Assembly: GCA_015055545.1 (NCBI GenBank)
Contig: SVHY01000012.1
Span: 1 to 49,111, forward strand
Direction of reading: 5' to 3'
DNA length: 49,111 bases
From: Clostridiales bacterium
Lineage (GTDB): Bacteria; Bacillota; Clostridia; Christensenellales; Borkfalkiaceae
The notes beneath the pieces were generated by a model. It made no database searches and was not told the origin of the DNA. It saw only the letters and a program-made list of their open reading frames with translations. This document shows, one piece after another, positions 8,502-49,111 of the stretch. The position numbers and the translations under genes were made by a program. Numbering within the stretch: position 1 is the first letter of the stretch; every line of letters begins with the position of its first letter.

Positions 8502-9239
8502 TTAATAGATAAATTTAATATCCCGTCCGTCCAGATTTTTCGGGGGTGCGCCGTCCGTTACGACAAAGTCGTACGATTCTAACGACGTCAACCGATACGC
8601 CCCGTGCGCGTCGAATTTCGTGCCGTCGATAAGCAGAATTCGTTTTAACGAGCGTTCAAACGCGGCACGCTTAATTTCCTTTTGGTCGAGAGAACGCTCG
8701 TACGCGTGCCCGTCGATAACCGCCGCGCACGAAGAAATCATTAAATCGAACTTGAAATCTTCCAACTGCCTTGCCGTCCAGCTGCCCGTTGCGGAAATGG
8801 TGTTGTATTGCACCATACCGCCCAGCATAACCAGCGTTACGTTCGGTTTTTTGGAAAGCTGAATTGCCGTTTGCAAGTTGTTCGTCACCACCGTTTTATG
8901 GCTGAAATCCATACGCTCGGCAAGCGCCAAAACGGTGGAAGAGCTGTCAATAAACACCGATTTGAAAGGGGGAATATGAGGCAACGCTTTCGTCGCCGCG
9001 CGCTCCTTTTCTTGCGCGTTTTTTTCCATACGGAAAAAGATAGAGATTTCTTCGCTGTTTTCAGGGAGCAGCGCGCCGCCGTGATTGCGTTCGACAAGCC
9101 CCATGCCGTTCATCTCCGATAAATCGCGTCGAATCGTCGCTTCGCTGACGTAAAACAGCTTTGCCAGCTCGTTTACGTTTGCCTTTTTTTGCTCTTTTAA
9201 GATGCGTAAAATTTCGTTTTGCCGTTCGTTTAATGCCAT
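8502..9239 (-). CDS. DeoR-family transcriptional repressor, probable regulator of the rhamnose/microcompartment operon
   Basis: The 245-residue protein has the DeoR-type N-terminal winged helix (LNERQNEILRILKEQ, then SEATIRRDLSEM as recognition helix, residues 1-57) and the C-terminal DeoRC sugar-phosphate sensor domain with conserved IDSSSTVLALAE and NNLQTA segments. Its start has GGAGTAGG upstream. It is divergent from rhaB, and the shared 231-bp region has two back-to-back promoters and two near-identical operator-like sites, one over its own promoter and one over the rha promoter. The simplest reading is an autoregulated repressor of the operon released by a rhamnose-derived phosphorylated intermediate; the effector is inference. 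Confidence 0.88.
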   Translation of the reverse strand: MALNERQNEILRILKEQKKANVNELAKLFYVSEATIRRDLSEMNGMGLVERNHGGALLPENSEEISIFFRMEKNAQEKERAATKALPHIPPFKSVFIDSSSTVLALAERMDFSHKTVVTNNLQTAIQLSKKPNVTLVMLGGMVQYNTISATGSWTARQLEDFKFDLMISSCAAVIDGHAYERSLDQKEIKRAAFERSLKRILLIDGTKFDAHGAYRLTSLESYDFVVTDGAPPKNLDGRDIKFIY

Positions 9240-9294
9240 AACCTACTCCTACGTCGTAAAAATCTGTTAAAAATGCGCGTTTTGTGCGCGTTTT

Positions 9295-9310
9295 TGTTCG
9301 TTTGTGTTCA
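9295..9310. promoter_or_regulatory. Operator-like site 1, at the DeoR gene promoter
   Basis: TGTTCGTTTGTGTTCA contains two TGTTC half-sites spaced 10 bp, one helical turn. It matches 14 of 16 bases of site 2 in opposite orientation. It covers the expected start point of the minus-strand DeoR promoter, which fits autorepression. Tandem half-sites of this sort are typical of DeoR-family operators. Confidence 0.7.
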
Positions 9311-9311
9311 T

Positions 9312-9340
9312 ATTGTATCATAAAAAATTTTTTTTGTCAA
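9312..9340 (-). promoter_or_regulatory. Promoter of the DeoR repressor gene
   Basis: On the minus strand TTGACA (9335-9340), 17 bp, TACAAT (9312-9317). Transcription would start at about 9305, inside operator-like site 1. Confidence 0.75.
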
Positions 9341-9355
9341 TCTTTCGCACATATA

Positions 9356-9384
9356 TAGACAAAAATAAAAAAGTGTGATATAAT
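9356..9384 (+). promoter_or_regulatory. Promoter of the rha/microcompartment operon
   Basis: TAGACA (9356-9361), 17 bp, TATAAT (9379-9384), with a start near 9391 and an 80-base leader to rhaB. Its -35 box is only 15 bp from that of the divergent DeoR promoter. No B12 riboswitch or other folded leader was seen, as expected for a B12-independent pathway. Confidence 0.8.
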
Positions 9385-9414
9385 ATATTGGAAATACGAA
9401 ATCGTGGCGGAAAA

Positions 9415-9430
9415 CGAACATAAACGAACA
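9415..9430. promoter_or_regulatory. Operator-like site 2, in the rha operon leader
   Basis: CGAACATAAACGAACA is the reverse complement of TGTTCGTTTATGTTCG and matches site 1 at 14 of 16 bases. It sits about 25-40 bases after the predicted start point, where bound repressor would block elongation. The centres of the two sites are 120 bp apart, which would allow a repression loop. Confidence 0.7.
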
Positions 9431-9470
9431 TAAAAAAACGTATCCGCAACGAAAAAGCAGAGAGGTTGGT

Positions 9471-16921: not shown

Positions 16922-17239
16922 ATGGCACTTGGTATGATAGAAGTGTTCGGCTTCGCTACCGCTATCGTAGTTGCCGATAAAATGGCGAAAGCTGCCGACG
17001 TAGAAGTGGTGGCAATCGATAAGAACAAACCTGCGGCGGGGGATTCCGCGCGCGTGCCTTTGGTTATGGCAATCAAAGTAGAAGGCAGCGCGGCGGCGGT
17101 AGAAGCGTCCGTACAAGCAGGGAAGGAAGAAGCCGAAAAACGTGGCTTGTATATTACGCATAAAGTAATTGCAAGACAAAGTGAAGATATCGAGTGGTTT
17201 GCTCGTTTGAGCGCACTTGGTAAAGATAAATTAAGATAA
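16922..17239 (+). CDS. BMC-H shell protein 1 (extended form)
   Basis: A single BMC domain, 105 residues, that would form hexameric shell tiles. It opens GMIEVFGFATAIVVADKMAKAADVEV, the standard first helix-strand unit, and carries HKVIARQSEDIEW at the end. It is 15 residues longer than the next three shell proteins and has a distinctive pore-side loop (DKNKPAAGDSARVPL), so it may make a hexamer with a different pore. GAAGGAG lies 10 bases before the ATG. First of four tandem BMC-H genes. Confidence 0.9.
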   Translation: MALGMIEVFGFATAIVVADKMAKAADVEVVAIDKNKPAAGDSARVPLVMAIKVEGSAAAVEASVQAGKEEAEKRGLYITHKVIARQSEDIEWFARLSALGKDKLR

Positions 17240-17280
17240 AATAAAAAAAATAAAAATAAAATTCAAGGAGAATTACAAAA

Positions 17281-17556
17281 ATGATGGAAGCATTAGGCAT
17301 GGTTGAAACGAGAGGTTTGGTAGCAGCGATTGAAGCAGCGGATGCAATGGTAAAGGCAGCAAACGTTGTACTTATCGGCAGCGAAAAAATCGGCAGCGGT
17401 TTGGTAAGCGTTATGGTTCGCGGTGACGTTGGCGCAGTTAAGGCAGCGGTAGAAGCTGGCAGCGCAGCAGCTACGGCTCTTGGCGAAGTTATCGCTACGC
17501 ACGTAATCCCCAGACCTCACGCAGACGTTGAAAAACTTCTTCCCGCTATCAAATAA
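17281..17556 (+). CDS. BMC-H shell protein 2, major type (identical protein to the copy at 17947)
   Basis: A canonical 90/91-residue PduA/PduJ-like hexameric shell protein with [19 protein letters not shown], the pore motif region [12 protein letters not shown] and a C-terminal [14 protein letters not shown]. The ATG at 17281 is followed directly by a second ATG at 17284, which is the start that matches the paralogue; AAGGAG at 17265-17270 could serve either. From 17284 on the protein is identical to that of 17947-18219 at all 90 residues, while the DNA differs at 20 positions, all synonymous. Confidence 0.95.
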
Positions 17557-17606
17557 TTCGAAGAAAAAAGTTTTTCAATTATTCGTAAATTAAGGAGAAG
17601 GTTTTT

Positions 17607-17879
17607 ATGAAAGCAATAGCGTTACTCGAAGTGCAAGCAATGGTGGCGGCAATCACCGGGCTTGACGCGATGGTAAAGGCGGCGGACGTAAAGCTTATTC
17701 ACGTAGAAAAGCGTCTTGGCGGCAGATTGGTAACGGTCGTCGTTGAAGGCGAGGTATCGGCTTGCCAGGCGGCGCTTCAAGCAGGCGCAGCCGCGGCGGC
17801 AGAGGTAGGCAACGTAAAAGTGTGTGAAGTGATTGCACGTCCGCACCCCGACGTTATGCGTTTCTTAACGACGGGTTAA
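17607..17879 (+). CDS. BMC-H shell protein 3 (divergent paralogue)
   Basis: A 90-residue single-BMC-domain protein ([19 protein letters not shown] at the start, [17 protein letters not shown] at the end) that would form hexamers. It differs from its two flanking twins in the pore loop, reading [13 protein letters not shown] where they have [12 protein letters not shown], so an arginine-bearing pore with different selectivity is likely. AAGGAG lies nine bases before the ATG. It separates the two identical BMC-H genes. Confidence 0.93.
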
Positions 17880-17946
17880 AACAAAATTAAAACTGCAAAG
17901 TTTTAAAATAAAAATAAAAAACAAAAATCTTAGGAGGATTTTAAAA

Positions 17947-18219
17947 ATGGAAGCATTAGGTATGGTTGAAACGAGAGGTCTCGTAGCAGCAATCGAAGCG
18001 GCAGATGCTATGGTAAAGGCGGCTAACGTCGTACTTATCGGTAGCGAAAAAATCGGTAGCGGTTTGGTAAGCGTTATGGTTCGTGGCGACGTTGGCGCAG
18101 TTAAGGCAGCTGTAGAAGCTGGCAGCGCAGCGGCTACGGCACTTGGCGAAGTTATCGCTACGCACGTAATCCCCAGACCGCACGCAGACGTTGAAAAACT
18201 TCTTCCCGCTATTAAATAA
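17947..18219 (+). CDS. BMC-H shell protein 4 (identical protein to the copy at 17281)
   Basis: A 90-residue canonical hexameric shell protein, same amino-acid sequence as residues 2-91 of the product of 17281-17556. The start has a full AGGAGG nine bases upstream, a stronger ribosome site than its twin's. A short hairpin AAAACT-GCAA-AGTTTT (17889-17904) lies in the 67-base AT-rich gap before it. It is the last gene before the internal terminator at 18241, so it and the other shell genes can be made in excess over the rest of the operon. Confidence 0.95.
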
Positions 18220-18240: not shown

Positions 18241-18284
18241 CCGCAGTATCCGCGCAATCAGGCGCGGATGCTGTGGGGGTTTTT
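18241..18284 (+). terminator. Internal intrinsic terminator after the shell gene block
   Basis: A 15-bp stem (18241-18255 with 18262-18276, two G-U pairs) closes a six-base loop and is followed by GGGTTTTT. It lies 22 bases after the fourth BMC-H stop and before pduL, in mid-operon, so it probably acts as a partial terminator setting a lower level for downstream genes. Confidence 0.85.
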
Positions 18285-18327
18285 CAATCGCATAAATGCG
18301 GCAAAAAAAGCGTAAAACGGCTTAAAG

Positions 18328-18453
18328 TAGGGGTATTTTACGCAAAAATAGGGGCAATTTGCCCTAAAATAGGGGTATTTTACGCAAAAATAGGGGCAAT
18401 TTGCCCTAAAATAGGGGTATTCTACCCAAAAATACGGGTATTTCGCCCAAAAT
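18328..18453. repeat. Six tandem 21-bp palindromic repeats
   Basis: Units begin at 18328, 18349, 18370, 18391, 18412 and 18433. Units 1 and 3 are identical, units 2 and 4 are identical, and 5 and 6 are diverged relatives. Each unit holds a short dyad: GGGCAATTTGCCC is a perfect 13-bp palindrome in units 2 and 4, GGGTATTCTACCC is perfect in unit 5, and the others are imperfect. The 21-bp period equals two helical turns. The array fills the gap between the internal terminator and pduL. Confidence 0.95.
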
Positions 18454-18490
18454 CGAGAAAAGAAAAACAACGAATAACGGAAGGTTTGTT

Positions 18491-19156
18491 ATGGAAATTT
18501 CAAGTGCAAAAATTGCAGAAATGGTTAAAAAAGTGCTCGCGGATATGAACGGCGATACGGTTGGCCAAAGCGTAGGCGCGGCAAACGAAGTGCCTATCGG
18601 CGTATCGAATAGACATATTCATTTAAACAAAGCGGATTTAGAAACGCTTTTTGGCGCAGGATACGAACTCACGCCGATGAAAGATTTGTCGCAACCGGGA
18701 CAATACGCTTGCAAAGAAACGTTGACGCTTATCGGGCCTGCGATGCGTCCTATTGAAGGCGTGCGCGTGTTAGGGCCGCTTCGTAAAAATTCGCAAGTGG
18801 AAATTTCTATGACCGATTCTTACGTGTTAAAGGTAAAACCGCCCGTAAGAGAATCGGGCAATATCGTCGGTTCGGCAGGCGTAACGATTATCGGGCCGAA
18901 AGGGGTAGTACAATTAAAAGAAGGTTGTATTATTGCCAATAGACATATCCATATGTCGCCCAGCGACGGGGAAAAGTTCAACGTGAAAGACGGCGAAACG
19001 GTGACGGTGGACGTAGAAGGCAAACGCCGTACGAGATGGTACGACGTGCAGGTACGCGTGCATCCCGATTTCCGTTTGGAAATGCACGTAGATACGGATG
19101 ACGCCAACGCCGCAGGGATTGGCAACGGCTTTAAAGTAAAGGTCGTTAAGGAGTAA
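18491..19156 (+). CDS. pduL: Phosphate propanoyltransferase PduL with N-terminal encapsulation peptide
   Basis: It converts propionyl-CoA and phosphate to propionyl-phosphate and free CoA, recycling CoA within the shell. The 221-residue protein has the two PduL repeats with their zinc-ligand histidines: VPIGVSNRHIHLNKADL near residue 35 and ANRHIHMSPSD near residue 155. Residues 1-20 (SSAKIAEMVKKVLADMNG) form an amphipathic helix like the targeting tags of the aldehyde and alcohol dehydrogenases. The ATG has GGAAGG upstream, just after the 21-bp repeat array. Four bases separate its stop from the BMC-P gene. Confidence 0.95.
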   Translation: MEISSAKIAEMVKKVLADMNGDTVGQSVGAANEVPIGVSNRHIHLNKADLETLFGAGYELTPMKDLSQPGQYACKETLTLIGPAMRPIEGVRVLGPLRKNSQVEISMTDSYVLKVKPPVRESGNIVGSAGVTIIGPKGVVQLKEGCIIANRHIHMSPSDGEKFNVKDGETVTVDVEGKRRTRWYDVQVRVHPDFRLEMHVDTDDANAAGIGNGFKVKVVKE

Positions 19157-24921: not shown

Positions 24922-24984
24922 TCTCGTCGCCAAATGCTCGCACCAACTCAATAAAAAAGCGGAATTTTCCGCAGGAGAAATAGT

Positions 24985-33200: not shown

Positions 33201-35119
33201 AGGGTATGTTCTACAATTGTAGAGAATTGACGGAAGTTACGCTGCCTGCGTTCGTAGGGAAAACGGTTACAGTCAACGGCGAGGATACCGTTGTATATAA
33301 TACGGTTGGCGCGCACGCGTTTAACGGCTGTGTTAGACTGAACCGCGCGACGAACTTAGATAAAGTTGCATATTTCGGCAATCAAGCCTTCTATAATACG
33401 TCGCTTACTACGCTTCCTCTCGTGAACGCGAAAGAAATCGGCGTGGGCGCGTTTGCAGACGAAAACGGAGAGGCGAAATATACGTCGCTTATAATGCCCG
33501 TTGTAGAAAAAATCGGTGCATACGCCTTCCTCAACGGTGGCGAAACGACGGTGGAACTCCCTGCAAGCGTGGAAGAAATCGGTTTTGGAGCGTTTGCTTC
33601 GTCCAAGAATTTAATTGGCTTTACCGTGGCTGACGGCAACGAGAAGTTTGTGGTAATGGACGCAGACGAAGAAGGGTACGGCGTGTTGTACCGCTATATT
33701 GACAAAGCGGCGAAAACGTACGAAATCGTATGCTATCCTGCTGCCCGTCAACAAGAGGCGGTAAACGAAGAAAAGACGTATAAAGTAGTGGACGGTACGT
33801 TGTACGTGCAATCGTCGGCGTTCTTGGATTTGAACGAGGGCGCGTTGGACGGTATCGTATTGCCGCATAGCTTAAACGTTATCGGCGACGAAGCGTTTTT
33901 CAACAGCGGAATTAAAAAATACACGTTCGAAAGCGTGCAAGCGCCTATCTTGGAAACGAGCTATCGCGACGAAGTTGCAGGCTGGGTGGAATCGATTGCC
34001 GACGAACAAGCCGCGTCCTATTATAAAGGATATTATTATACGAACTTCGAAACGTATTTCTATAATTTCACCGAGTTCAAAGGGGAAACGAGCGAACTGG
34101 AAATGTACTACCCCGTAAACGGAGTTGGTTACGATAACTACGTATACGGCAAATATTTCGGGGTAAGAAAGCAAACTGCCATTGTTATGACGGACGAAAC
34201 GCGTGCGTTTATGGATACGCTCAACGGGTTGCCTATGGAAGACATCCTTGCGATGGCGACGTGGGATAAAACGGACGAAGTGAAGAAAGCGGAAGCAGTT
34301 GCTTACGGTGAAGTGATTTCCCAATTGCGCGCTTCGTACGATTTGTTGTGTAAAGACGAGGGGCAAGCACCTTTCGTTCAAGAAAAAACGGCGGCGCTTT
34401 TGGCGGCGGAAACGGCAATTCGTCAAGCGAAAGTCAACTTTGGCTTGGGCGAAGAAATCACCAGCGTAAGACAGGACAGAACGTCGTTTAAAACGAAGTA
34501 CGTCGTTGGTGAAAAATTCGATATTACGGGTATGAAAGTTACCTTGTTGCCCTCGGGAAGAGTGGTGGATACTCAATATCTTACCTTGGTGAGCGATTAT
34601 AACCGCAATTTGACGATTGAAGACGACCACGTAAGGGTTCTTTACGACGACGGCGTTAGCAGTATCGAATTTAGGGTGGCGATTACCGTCACCGCGGCAA
34701 ACGCACCCGACGAAACTCCCGATACGCCCGACGTACCCGATGCGCCCGACGCGCCTGACGCGCCTTCCCCCGAAAAGGAGAACGCGCCTTGGTGGCTGTG
34801 GGTAGTAATCGGTGGCGGCGTGGCTCTGCTTGCTGGGGCGGCGGTGTTGACCGTCTTGCTTTTGAAAAAGAAAGGCAAAAAAGCGTTGAAAGAAACGACG
34901 GAAGAAACCGTTGCCGAAAACGCGGAAACGGAAGAAAGCGTTGTAGAAAACGCGGAAACGGAAGAAGCCGTTGTAGAAAACGCGAAAACGGAAGAAACCG
35001 TTGCTGAAAACGCGGAAACGGAAGAAACCGTTGCTGAAAACGCGAAAACGGAAGAAACCGTTGCTGAAAGCGCGGAAACGGAAGAAGCCGTTGTAGAAAA
35101 CGCGAAAACGGAAGAATAA
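27299..35119 (+). CDS. Giant membrane-anchored subtilisin-like (S8) protease with PA, Ig-like and BspA-type LRR domains
   Basis: The start at 27299 has GGGAGG just upstream. The product is 2606 residues. Order: signal peptide (1-33), I9-type propeptide (about 80-175), S8 catalytic domain with Asp225 (AILDTGLDY), His298 (NHGTHVAG) and Ser671 (SGTSMASPNMAG), interrupted by a PA domain (about 505-615); Fn3-like beta domains as in C5a-peptidase relatives; Big_2-like Ig domains (VSNRKGGVEKINVTV and VDDKGNVTTLKKG); then about 800 residues of LRR_5/BspA-like repeats (AFKNCKNLKTIDL, AFKGCESLTEIDL and similar); a Big_3-like domain; a Pro/Asp/Ala linker; a membrane helix (WLWVVIGGGVALLAGAAVLTVLLL) and a cytoplasmic repeat tail. 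It is likely a cell-surface protease with a binding stalk for host or dietary proteins; substrate unknown. Confidence 0.93.
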   Translation: MKKKTKRILCGLLSLGLASTLVVEQTLRLSASSGIDETPTTASAVTFKDVTGTMDTSALRESQLNESVLKNTDTTPTYETRTVMVTLSGDSLAEGSSTSVNAYLNTFTGQNHLSQIRKEQNAFLRALKSEGISYTEEDRYETVLNAVAIEVNTKYVSQIKRMSGVESVVITTSYAEPKTITSKANQEVFNATSVYKTGIYESNDFTDVNGSENDYGEGTVIAILDTGLDYTHEAFQRQPENPAWSNEDVSEKLNALNLRAESRSNGLETKDVYVSSKVPFAYDYADDDADVYPSYSNHGTHVAGIIGGYNENGYTDKDGNEITDQEFRGVVPDSQLVICKVFTDDLEDPELGGAQAEDIIAALEDCVMLDVDVINMSLGTSCGFSTTNDGDDEGEMLNAVYEAIAKEGISLVCAASNDYSAGYGGVFGTNLKQNPDSSTVGSPSTFASALSVASISGQESPYMIGLDKNGGEGNYIFFEESRDENSNPFDFVNQMLGEGKDEPITAEYVVIPGTGAMGHYSKAITDEFKANRAEGILSIALVKRGDSTFQEKVQLAKRMGADAIIVYNNVAGLIRMNLGEIEEDMRIPAVSIDMDAGNALIDALRDEKGNLPSLAVGKIKICRDTSAGPFMSEFSSWGPTHDLKLKPEITAHGGEITSTVPGGYGEQSGTSMASPNMAGVMSIIRNYIENTATTRALITEEGVVNNALVNRLANQLIMSTATMVRDQAGRPYSPRKQGAGLGSLDKVINQTSAYLWVNDADSDYRPKLEIGDDPQKSGIIEKDRLTFKITNFGASALGFTTNHLLFTETVAADKLAIAEQAHMLDDMAAKWYVNGDLISDGDAITVEAGQTATISVELELSADELAYLGTDNFPNGMYLEGFLQLKSTTQGQCDLSIPFLGFHGDWESATMLDYTAYDVAKDEADPSLEDSEKKQASVWATQPYSIYYNEKYILPMGSYVYLVDEHNDDPVYTDEKFNAISRYNTYYGDDNAKNYLTTTGIKAVYAGLLRNARLVTYSLTNVETGEAVFVDKEINRVGKAYAGGGQAVPGNVEVELYPEEYGLLANGQYRMDFTFYMNDPDKYDVFATVGTSVYPEGVNPNNMKEEYSFTFTVDYDAPVLEDARIRYKTIKDSNGKEKQSIYLDLDVYDNHYAQAVMLCYPKTNSEGELVLQLATDYATPVRSKTKNGTTTVSIEITDIYEQYGNQLYVQIDDYAVNSCLYQLDLDAMHAGQLPETDGFALADGEKNLTLDIYEAHKVSLVYEGTADVSNFSWTTDSPSVAQVKDGEIVGLSAGTATISVSNRKGGVEKINVTVTNTVKSIPEPSISFGVIKTAGEALSKAEGMVEVNAGQTMELQLLTDPWYHPMTGLTVQWKSHDENVATVDDKGNVTTLKKGIVAIEAKLYRGNIPTMNIATVTLDVVDEFDVSNYILYDYNGVGYSTDKDDGVLWIPTDMNIMYIGEDAFKDNDNVKAVVIPASVVQIQEGAFENCSALEAVYFVSTKHRETVEGGVKKIDQTIDWADCSLIHAGAFKNCKNLKTIDLTNAKTITVAQDCFLDCISLQKIEKMNNIGTMYHRAFKGCESLTEIDLTGTFVMGDNVFEGCTGIDSIQTGRFTVIGKEAFKNCTGLRDKLVLQTPNIGEGAFSGCEYLSGIEFRSPVGVTLEFDIGERAFENCGKKSRYGFTVDFGGEIIRTIGKNAFAGCGIEQINIDDTFDYDALRLGGMSFEDITVSLAAGYDGAKYAMEDGAIYTQDKSKLLLVNTSLTGAFQIPASVTEIGSYAFANSNLTTITFENPANITKLGEGAFYGAKIKNIDLSGVAVAEIPAYAFYETYVSSITLNAATKSVGDYAFAYSAIHSGDFTAVETLGNYVFTNCNALQKLTTAQETDALALGTSLTTFGDGVFAYCTALQSAELPSLTKMGAYTFIGASRLTTATFADGATATGEYTFANSGIKSFVFTDGQTGVGEGMFYNCRELTEVTLPAFVGKTVTVNGEDTVVYNTVGAHAFNGCVRLNRATNLDKVAYFGNQAFYNTSLTTLPLVNAKEIGVGAFADENGEAKYTSLIMPVVEKIGAYAFLNGGETTVELPASVEEIGFGAFASSKNLIGFTVADGNEKFVVMDADEEGYGVLYRYIDKAAKTYEIVCYPAARQQEAVNEEKTYKVVDGTLYVQSSAFLDLNEGALDGIVLPHSLNVIGDEAFFNSGIKKYTFESVQAPILETSYRDEVAGWVESIADEQAASYYKGYYYTNFETYFYNFTEFKGETSELEMYYPVNGVGYDNYVYGKYFGVRKQTAIVMTDETRAFMDTLNGLPMEDILAMATWDKTDEVKKAEAVAYGEVISQLRASYDLLCKDEGQAPFVQEKTAALLAAETAIRQAKVNFGLGEEITSVRQDRTSFKTKYVVGEKFDITGMKVTLLPSGRVVDTQYLTLVSDYNRNLTIEDDHVRVLYDDGVSSIEFRVAITVTAANAPDETPDTPDVPDAPDAPDAPSPEKENAPWWLWVVIGGGVALLAGAAVLTVLLLKKKGKKALKETTEETVAENAETEESVVENAETEEAVVENAKTEETVAENAETEETVAENAKTEETVAESAETEEAVVENAKTEE
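34901..35110 (+). repeat. Seven tandem 30-bp repeats coding the acidic cytoplasmic tail
   Basis: Units of ten residues (E-E-T-V-A-E-N-A-E-T and variants with S/A-V-V) start at 34901 and repeat every 30 bases up to 35110, after which only two codons and the stop follow. They lie on the cytoplasmic side of the membrane helix. The near-identity of units suggests copy-number variation between strains. Confidence 0.93.
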
Positions 35120-47624: not shown

Positions 47625-49111
47625 TTATGCGTTCGCCGCGAATACGAATACAGGGGAAACAGCCGTTTCATCAGCAGCTGCTCCAACTTCGATAACGTAC
47701 GTCGTACCAACAACTACTTCATACGTCGTGCCTTCAACGGGCGATACAGGGCTACCGTTTTCAGGGTAGAACGCTTTCACTGCGCCCGTACCGTTAACGG
47801 TAAGCGTACCGCTTTGCGTAGCCGTATAGGAGAAGTACGCGTTGAGCGTAGCACCAGACATAGGGTTGGTAGGAAGTTCAACTTCGCTGAAAACTTCGCC
47901 TTCGGGTTCAACGACGAAAGGAGCGCCAAAGCTACCATCTTCCGTAGGTTCTTCAACGGGAGCTTCCGTGGAGAAGGAGAATACGGGAGAGATAGGGCTA
48001 GCTTCCATATCTTGTTGACCGATTTCAATCGTGTAGGTCGTACCAACGACAACTTCATACGTCAAACCGTCTTCGGTAACAGGATCAACGAAACCACCGT
48101 CGGAATAGAAACCGTTGATGCTGTTTACGTTAGAGATAGAAACGTAACCGCTTTGCGTAGCCGTATAGGAGAAGTACGCATTAGCCGTCATGCCCGTCAT
48201 AGGGTTGGTGGGAAGAACAACGTCGGAGAAAACTTCGCCTTCGGGTTCAACAACGAAAGGAGCGCCGTAGCTGCCGTCTTCCGTAGGTTCTTCTTCAGCC
48301 AATTCCGTGGAGAAGGAGAATACGGGAGAGATAGGGCTACCTGCCATGTCTTGCGCGCCGATTTCAATCGTATAGGTCGTGCCAACAACAACTTCATACG
48401 TCAAACCGTCTTCGGTAACGGGATCAACGAAACCACCGTCGGAATAGAAACCGTTGATGCTGTTTACGTTAGAGATAGAAACGTAACCGCTTTGCGTAGC
48501 CGTATAGGAGAAGTACGCGTTAGCCGTCATACCCGTCATAGGGTTGGTGGGAAGAACAACGTCGGAGAACACTTCGCCTTCGGGTTCAACGACGAAAGGA
48601 GCGCCGTAGCTACCGTCTTCCGTGGGTTCTACTTCAGCCAATTCCGTGGAGAAGGAGAATACAGGAGAGATAGGGCTAGCTTCCATATCTTGTTGACCAA
48701 TTTCAATCGTGTAGGTCGTACCAACGACAACTTCATACGTCAAACCGTCTTCGGTAACGGGATCAACGAAACCACCGTCGGAATAGAAACCGTTGATGCT
48801 GTTAACGTTGGAGATAGAAACGTAACCGCTTTGCGTAGCCGTGTAGGTGAAGTATGCGTTGGTAGCCGCGCCCGTCATAGGATGGGTGGGAAGAACAACG
48901 TCGGTGAACACTTCGCCAGCGGGATCAACGTCGAAGGGAGCGCCAAAGCTACCATCTTCCGTGGGCTCTTCAACGGGAGCTTCCGTAGAGAAGGAGAATA
49001 CGGGAGAGATAGGGCTAGCTTCCATATCTTGTTGACCGATTTCAATCGTGTAGGTCGTACCAACGACAACTTCATACGTCAAACCGTCTTCGGTAACAGG
49101 ATCAACGAAAC
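47625..49111 (-). CDS. Surface repeat protein with PPC-like 113-residue modules, C-terminal part (5' end outside window)
   Basis: The frame is open to the window edge; the in-frame TTG at 49082 lies inside a repeat and is not a start. At least 495 residues remain, made of tandem 113-residue modules. Each has AYFSYTATQSG-Y-VSISNVNS, then DGLTYEVVVGTTYTIEIG and SPISPVFSFSTE, joined by acidic linkers (EEPTEDGS-GAPF). The pattern of aromatic beta strands resembles bacterial pre-peptidase C-terminal (PPC) domains, which aid secretion or bind partners; this is a loose match. The last module is diverged (TLTVNGTGAVKAFYPENG) and the protein ends VFVFAANA without membrane helix or sortase signal, so any anchor must lie upstream. 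Probably an adhesin or secretion-associated stalk. Confidence 0.8.
   Translation of the reverse strand, partial: FVDPVTEDGLTYEVVVGTTYTIEIGQQDMEASPISPVFSFSTEAPVEEPTEDGSFGAPFDVDPAGEVFTDVVLPTHPMTGAATNAYFTYTATQSGYVSISNVNSINGFYSDGGFVDPVTEDGLTYEVVVGTTYTIEIGQQDMEASPISPVFSFSTELAEVEPTEDGSYGAPFVVEPEGEVFSDVVLPTNPMTGMTANAYFSYTATQSGYVSISNVNSINGFYSDGGFVDPVTEDGLTYEVVVGTTYTIEIGAQDMAGSPISPVFSFSTELAEEEPTEDGSYGAPFVVEPEGEVFSDVVLPTNPMTGMTANAYFSYTATQSGYVSISNVNSINGFYSDGGFVDPVTEDGLTYEVVVGTTYTIEIGQQDMEASPISPVFSFSTEAPVEEPTEDGSFGAPFVVEPEGEVFSEVELPTNPMSGATLNAYFSYTATQSGTLTVNGTGAVKAFYPENGSPVSPVEGTTYEVVVGTTYVIEVGAAADETAVSPVFVFAANA
47628..49111 (-). repeat. Tandem 339-bp repeats coding the 113-residue modules
   Basis: The same landmark (CCGTRGGYTC on the plus strand) recurs at 47942, 48281, 48620 and 48959, exactly 339 bases apart. 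Three full units between those points are near-identical at DNA level; the unit next to the stop is diverged and the fifth is cut by the window end. Confidence 0.95.

Follow-up and report, generated by a model that had tools for sequence, protein, structure and literature searches.

An array of six contiguous 21-bp palindromic units occupies positions 18328-18453 of the window (the whole 49,111-nucleotide stretch of DNA that was analyzed), inside a glycyl-radical BMC operon of the rhamnose/fucose type from an uncultured gut Clostridium. The array follows a conserved intrinsic terminator, occurs at this one locus of its own genome, is conserved in close relatives, and carries A/T tracts phased with the DNA helix. 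Given that conservation, it probably serves in control and is unlikely to be junk. We favor, tentatively and with somewhat less than even confidence, the explanation that it is a locus-specific cis element acting at the DNA level, curved and probably protein-bound, which would tune the passage of RNA polymerase into the pduL half of the operon.

Organization of the shell-to-pduL spacer

The host assembly is 1.95 Mb in size and 83% complete, and a PduL search of genome contigs identifies its nearest named relatives as metagenome assemblies of uncultured Clostridia, many from the hindgut of ruminants or deer. The operon begins with genes for a carbohydrate kinase, RhaA, acetate kinase, class II aldolase, aldehyde dehydrogenase, and alcohol dehydrogenase, and a gene for a DeoR-family regulator is divergently oriented at its start. 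Four BMC-domain genes lie at 16922-18219, followed by the spacer and then by pduL (18491-19156, plus strand), the first gene 3' of the array, which is assigned by profile as a phosphate propanoyltransferase (PF06130) and has its ribosome-binding site, GGAAGG, at 18479-18484 of the plus-strand sequence. Downstream of pduL are genes for EutN/CcmL, an RnfC/PduS-like protein, a PduT-like shell protein, the glycyl radical dehydratase, and an activase. The 271 bp that separate the last BMC-H gene from pduL form the longest and most structured spacer in this run of genes.

Several other repeats are found in the window. Operator-like repeats flank the operon promoter at 9280-9434, where a promoter-like TAGACA-N17-TATAAT stands between TTTTTGTTCGTTTGTGTTCAT upstream and AAACGAACATAAACGAACAT (9413-9432) downstream; these repeats adjoin the divergent DeoR-family regulator gene (8502-9239, minus strand). 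The palindrome AAAAAGCGGAATTTTCCGCA (24954-24973) resembles the array units in form and lies directly 5' of the start of a BMC-domain gene (24985). Tandem repeats are also present in large ORF sequence, with 7.3 copies of a 30-bp unit at 34898-35116, near the end of a 2612-aa ORF, and 3.8 copies of a 339-bp unit at the end of the window (47808-49111). A second strong site of the array type is not found within the window.

The first-pass annotation had placed an internal terminator ahead of the array, and this element proves to be real and strongly conserved. It spans 18241-18285 on the plus strand and consists of a 15-bp stem (CCGCAGTATCCGCGC/GCGCGGATGCTGTGG) followed by TTTTTC, with a predicted folding energy of -31.3 kcal/mol. 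In 32 relatives, the same spot holds a hairpin whose T-rich tail is usually GTTTTTCAA. In 26 sequences, pairing holds for 99% of cells and both partners have changed in 10 of 12 pairs, a score that none of the shuffles attains. The element thus combines the GC-rich stem, U-run, and compensatory changes of an intrinsic terminator. A different conserved palindrome, TTGTGTACGCGCGCGTACGCGCCTTTATGC, lies between the terminator and pduL once per genome in eight genomes of the genus (L061, L060, L064, L055, and others), and the copy in L057 carries a complementary outer stem, TCAAGC..GCTTGA.

The array itself was described from the outset as six units of 21 bp, and the unit starts (18328, 18349, 18370, 18391, 18412, and 18433) follow one another without gaps to position 18453. 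Tandem Repeats Finder (TRF) reports 18323-18453 with a period of 42 bp (3.1 copies, score 206) and a period of 21 bp (6.1 copies, score 153). All units are given on the plus strand. Unit 1 (18328-18348) is of type A, TAGGGGTATTTTACGCAAAAA, and unit 2 (18349-18369) is of type B, TAGGGGCAATTTGCCCTAAAA. Units 3 (18370-18390) and 4 (18391-18411) repeat units 1 and 2, respectively, letter for letter. Unit 5 (18412-18432) is of type C, TAGGGGTATTCTACCCAAAAA, and has orthologs in L041 and L042; unit 6 (18433-18453), of type D, TACGGGTATTTCGCCCAAAAT, is the most diverged. The proposed GGG-N7-CCC-like dyads are exact in units 2, 4, 5, and 6 and read GGG-N7-CGC in units 1 and 3. Because the 21-bp units are in register, the dyads do lie on one face of the helix. 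The unit pattern matches the window seven times, against 0.18 matches expected from shuffles, and the dyad symmetry exceeds what tandem repetition alone produces, being reached by only 9 of 5000 column-permuted arrays. Repeated dyads, helical register, and conservation of individual letters are the marks of a multi-site operator, and the array has all three.

The most pronounced physical feature of the array, absent from the first-pass annotation, is its phased A-tracts with the curvature that they predict. The tracts extend over linker and array (18294-18459, a feature of the duplex rather than of one strand) at a mean spacing of ~10.4 bp, and their centers run from 18295, in the linker ahead of the first unit, to 18459, giving A/T tracts near 10.5 bp over several helical turns, as in curved DNA. 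AAA/TTT periodicity reaches 18.9 at 10.4 bp and is at most 13.9 elsewhere in the window. In a single wedge model with Bolshoy parameters, the array ranks first in curvature among the 126-mers of 284 kb (the window plus 235 kb sampled from the 1.95-Mb genome), with a predicted contour to end-to-end ratio of 3.5-3.9 (3.86 in this ranking) compared with 2.07 for the next best segment; the controls give 2.0 for a phased A-tract and 1.04 for mixed sequence. This predicted curvature is reached by 0 of 500 dinucleotide shuffles and 0 of 1000 column-permuted tandem arrays. The phasing is partly geometric, since a tandem palindrome of period 21 sets its loop and linker centers 10.5 bp apart. Among relatives, the spacers that bear units (L041, L042, L043, and L068) are predicted to be curved at p<=0.01, and a universally curved spacer is not found: 11 of 30 spacers reach p<0.05, counted over related species that are not independent. 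Within the 284 kb from the genome of the window, the segment predicted to be second most curved is L202:14395-14520, which has A/T tracts between GGG/CCC motifs (GGGCATTTTTT..GTGCCCATTTTTT..ATGGGGAATTTTTGGGG).

Distribution, history, and constraint

The array would have been a generic dispersed element had the same repeats turned up at many unrelated intergenic sites, the outcome that the first-pass annotation named as decisive against its reading. This is not what is observed. The array is present once in its own genome, and the arrays of relatives lie only upstream of pduL; hence it is not dispersed. Among 57 genomes of the genus, two GGGN7CCC units at 21-bp spacing exceed the control (the reversed pattern) only upstream of pduL, in G000, G047 (L042), and G064 (L041). 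Searches of the genus with a single unit, allowing up to three mismatches, remain at control level except for one perfect copy (0 mismatches) in G065, which lies just upstream of pduL (L068; PduL ~78% identical) and nowhere else in that genome. With up to two mismatches, 396 genomes of the order return only the array itself and two scattered chance hits, and the exact two-unit pattern has no match in viral or species-genome collections. A dispersed intergenic repeat of the REP or MITE kind is rejected, given the single locus in the genome and the control-level counts elsewhere in genus and order.

In the closest relatives by PduL, L041 (96%) and L042 (95%), a diverged palindrome comes after units A-B-C. 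The window reads A-B-A-B-C-D, and a 42-bp A-B duplication therefore occurred in the window lineage, where it is known from one assembly. The alternation of two unit types seen earlier thus stands as an observation; it reflects this recent duplication rather than a designed pattern. About two diverged units are present in L043 (PduL 91%) and single diverged palindromes in L049 and L044; most other relatives have none. L068 is far off in the pduL tree, yet its exact unit sits at a similar distance from the pduL start.

The A-B-C units are identical to those of L042 at 59 of 63 positions, compared with 47 of 80 four-fold sites in pduL (p=9e-7); the corresponding values for L041 are 55 of 62 and 58 of 81 (p=0.01). 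Orthologous units are therefore 87-94% conserved, versus about 52-72% at four-fold sites. Conservation is lower beside the units, at 24-26 of 40 positions in the linker and 26-31 of 43 in the leader. Because the units exceed both the four-fold sites of pduL and the neighboring spacer, selection on the array, as opposed to pure neutrality, appears likely from these comparisons, in which three species contribute a multi-unit array of clearly alike units.

Proposed action and alternative explanations

The 21-bp units would set AT-rich tracts on one face of the helix every half unit (10.5 bp), and so produce a strong curve. The GGG/CCC dyads would all face one way, directly behind the conserved terminator and just before pduL. 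Such an array would probably offer a docking site to a DNA-binding protein, architectural or sequence-specific, or else act through curvature itself. In either case, it may alter how RNA polymerase leaves the shell genes and enters the half of the operon that holds pduL, EutN, PduS, PduT, and the dehydratase, or how it re-initiates there. Against this explanation stands the lack of any candidate binding protein and of a recognizable promoter in or after the array. Nor is the element a general requirement for pduL expression, since many relatives have short spacers with neither array nor curvature.

Whether the array acts as DNA or as RNA is best judged against the terminator. It is possible, if doubtful, that unit hairpins (GGG..CCC, with longer B-B stems, GCGUAAAA/UUUUACGC) form in the pduL leader of read-through or processed transcripts and shield the downstream mRNA at its 5' end or influence translation. 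The RNA fold of the array beats 200 of 200 shuffles (z -4.2), and that of the whole spacer gives z -8.5. The sole varying inner pair follows a path that RNA tolerates (UA-UG-CG), and G-U mismatches are commoner than A-C. Furthermore, GCGTAAAA (18310-18317, plus strand) is complementary to TTTTACGC, which makes up the 3' half of both unit 1 and unit 3, and the two pair in a predicted fold; this possible RNA stem, kept in L042 and partly in L041, would account for the unusual CGC in unit A. A short hairpin followed by an A-run precedes pduL in several relatives, although its occurrence is occasional (8 of 34 at p<0.05) and the idea of a universal element of this kind in the genus is abandoned. 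Set against these points, covariation in the array is no better than in shuffles (99 of 500 reach its score), 12% of cells are unpaired, and palindromes, any of which would outfold its shuffles, fold on both strands. Neither the window nor any of ten related loci matches an Rfam covariance model. The letters of the loop and the A-tract linker are about as conserved as those of the stem, and this conservation of the array letter for letter favors a DNA or protein-binding function over a purely RNA one. A terminator kept by pairing and an array kept by letter provide a simple means of separating RNA-level from DNA-level elements in uncultured genomes.

It is unlikely, in our estimation, that a short palindrome simply multiplied in tandem by neutral or nearly neutral change within a tolerant spacer, its AT-rich loop and linker giving rise to the curvature incidentally through the 21-bp period. 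This explanation accommodates the restriction of the A-B duplication to the window lineage, the absence of the array from most relatives, and the highly variable length and content of the spacer. It does not account for units conserved above their surroundings, for the exact unit kept at the same place in the distant L068, or for phased tracts that reach beyond the repeats. A role for the array as the UP or bent-DNA activating element of an internal promoter, at which transcription of pduL and the dehydratase half would start anew, seems improbable. A terminator ahead of the array does imply a need for read-through or re-initiation, and the next most curved sites in the window (9204 and 44788) adjoin divergent gene starts. 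However, the plus strand has no sigma-70-like match of at least 9/12 at 18286-18490, inspection by eye finds just a -10-like TAAAAT lacking a -35, and no promoter is recognizable in or after the array. Finally, 21 bp equal seven codons, and an open plus-strand frame (18273-18548) would translate the array as (KIGVFYAKIGAICP)n. Its GTG start falls in the terminator stem region, it overlaps pduL out of frame and lacks a ribosome site, and the L068 unit meets a stop shortly after. We reject a coding repeat on account of the missing ribosome site and the overlap with pduL, and a repetitive peptide is accordingly very hard to credit.

BMC operons presumably require shell protein in excess of enzyme. 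One speculative possibility, to which we give little weight, is that the boundary is an undescribed control point internal to BMC operons, at which a conserved attenuator and, in this lineage, a strongly curved, protein-bound tandem array would set the level of enzyme-half transcription and, with it, the ratio of shell to enzyme, with a three-arm RNA switch in this place in sister genera. The stop signal and the lineage-specific curved array are a testable candidate for setting that ratio at the level of RNA polymerase.

Comparison with known systems

No description of such an array, or of an internal terminator at the shell-to-pduL spot, was found in the literature searched. The Clostridium phytofermentans fucose/rhamnose glycyl-radical BMC operon represents the same pathway type and has many homologous genes, including PduP, PduL, PduS, PduT, the B12-independent dehydratase, and shell proteins (PMC3557285). 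A text search of that article turns up neither an array nor an internal terminator, and most intergenic probes are there described as expressed like the neighboring genes.

More distant Clostridia (L147, L149, L140, L164, and others among L137-L176) have a BMC-H-pduL spacer with three arms, CAGTATCCAAAGGGC, GCCCTTTGGGTACTGCAAAAGNGCTTAA, and TTGAGCTTTTTTGCAGTAC. Arm 2 can pair with either arm 1 or arm 3, and the two helices are mutually exclusive. In 16 sequences, the 2:3 helix covaries strongly, both partners having changed in 12 of its 19 pairs; covariation is weaker in the 1:2 helix, which is 91% paired. The element has no Rfam match and looks like a mutually exclusive attenuator/antiterminator switch. 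Its presence in sister genera supports the shell-to-pduL boundary as a regulated point.

EutV/ANTAR-controlled terminators of eut microcompartment loci share the use of intergenic intrinsic terminators as control points (PMC3369931). The ANTAR dual hairpin has hexanucleotide loops (A1, G4) and lies before and overlapping the terminator (PMC3369931), whereas here the array is 3' of the terminator and no dual-hairpin motif is seen. The ~21 nt that separate the shell stop codon from the terminator stem likewise show no dual hairpin on inspection. An ANTAR antitermination element is rejected on this layout. A search for the ANTAR domain (PF03861) gives no match in the 83% complete genome, and its controls also go unmatched.

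The pil1 pilus operon of Streptococcus gallolyticus likewise combines tandem repeats and a stem-loop terminator in one control point (PMC3894217). Its attenuation depends on frame-changing GCAGA repeats in a translated leader before the terminator (PMC3894217); the repeats described here keep frame at 21 bp, lie 3' of the terminator, and give no indication of being translated. A further parallel is the intrinsically curved intergenic DNA, with phased A-tracts, that Bolshoy and co-workers are cited for at prokaryotic promoters and terminators in PMC4060949. Such DNA shares with the array its A/T tracts at the helical period, its intergenic position, and its place beside a terminator. The array differs in being composed of tandem palindromic units within an operon, conserved letter for letter, with GC dyads set between the tracts.
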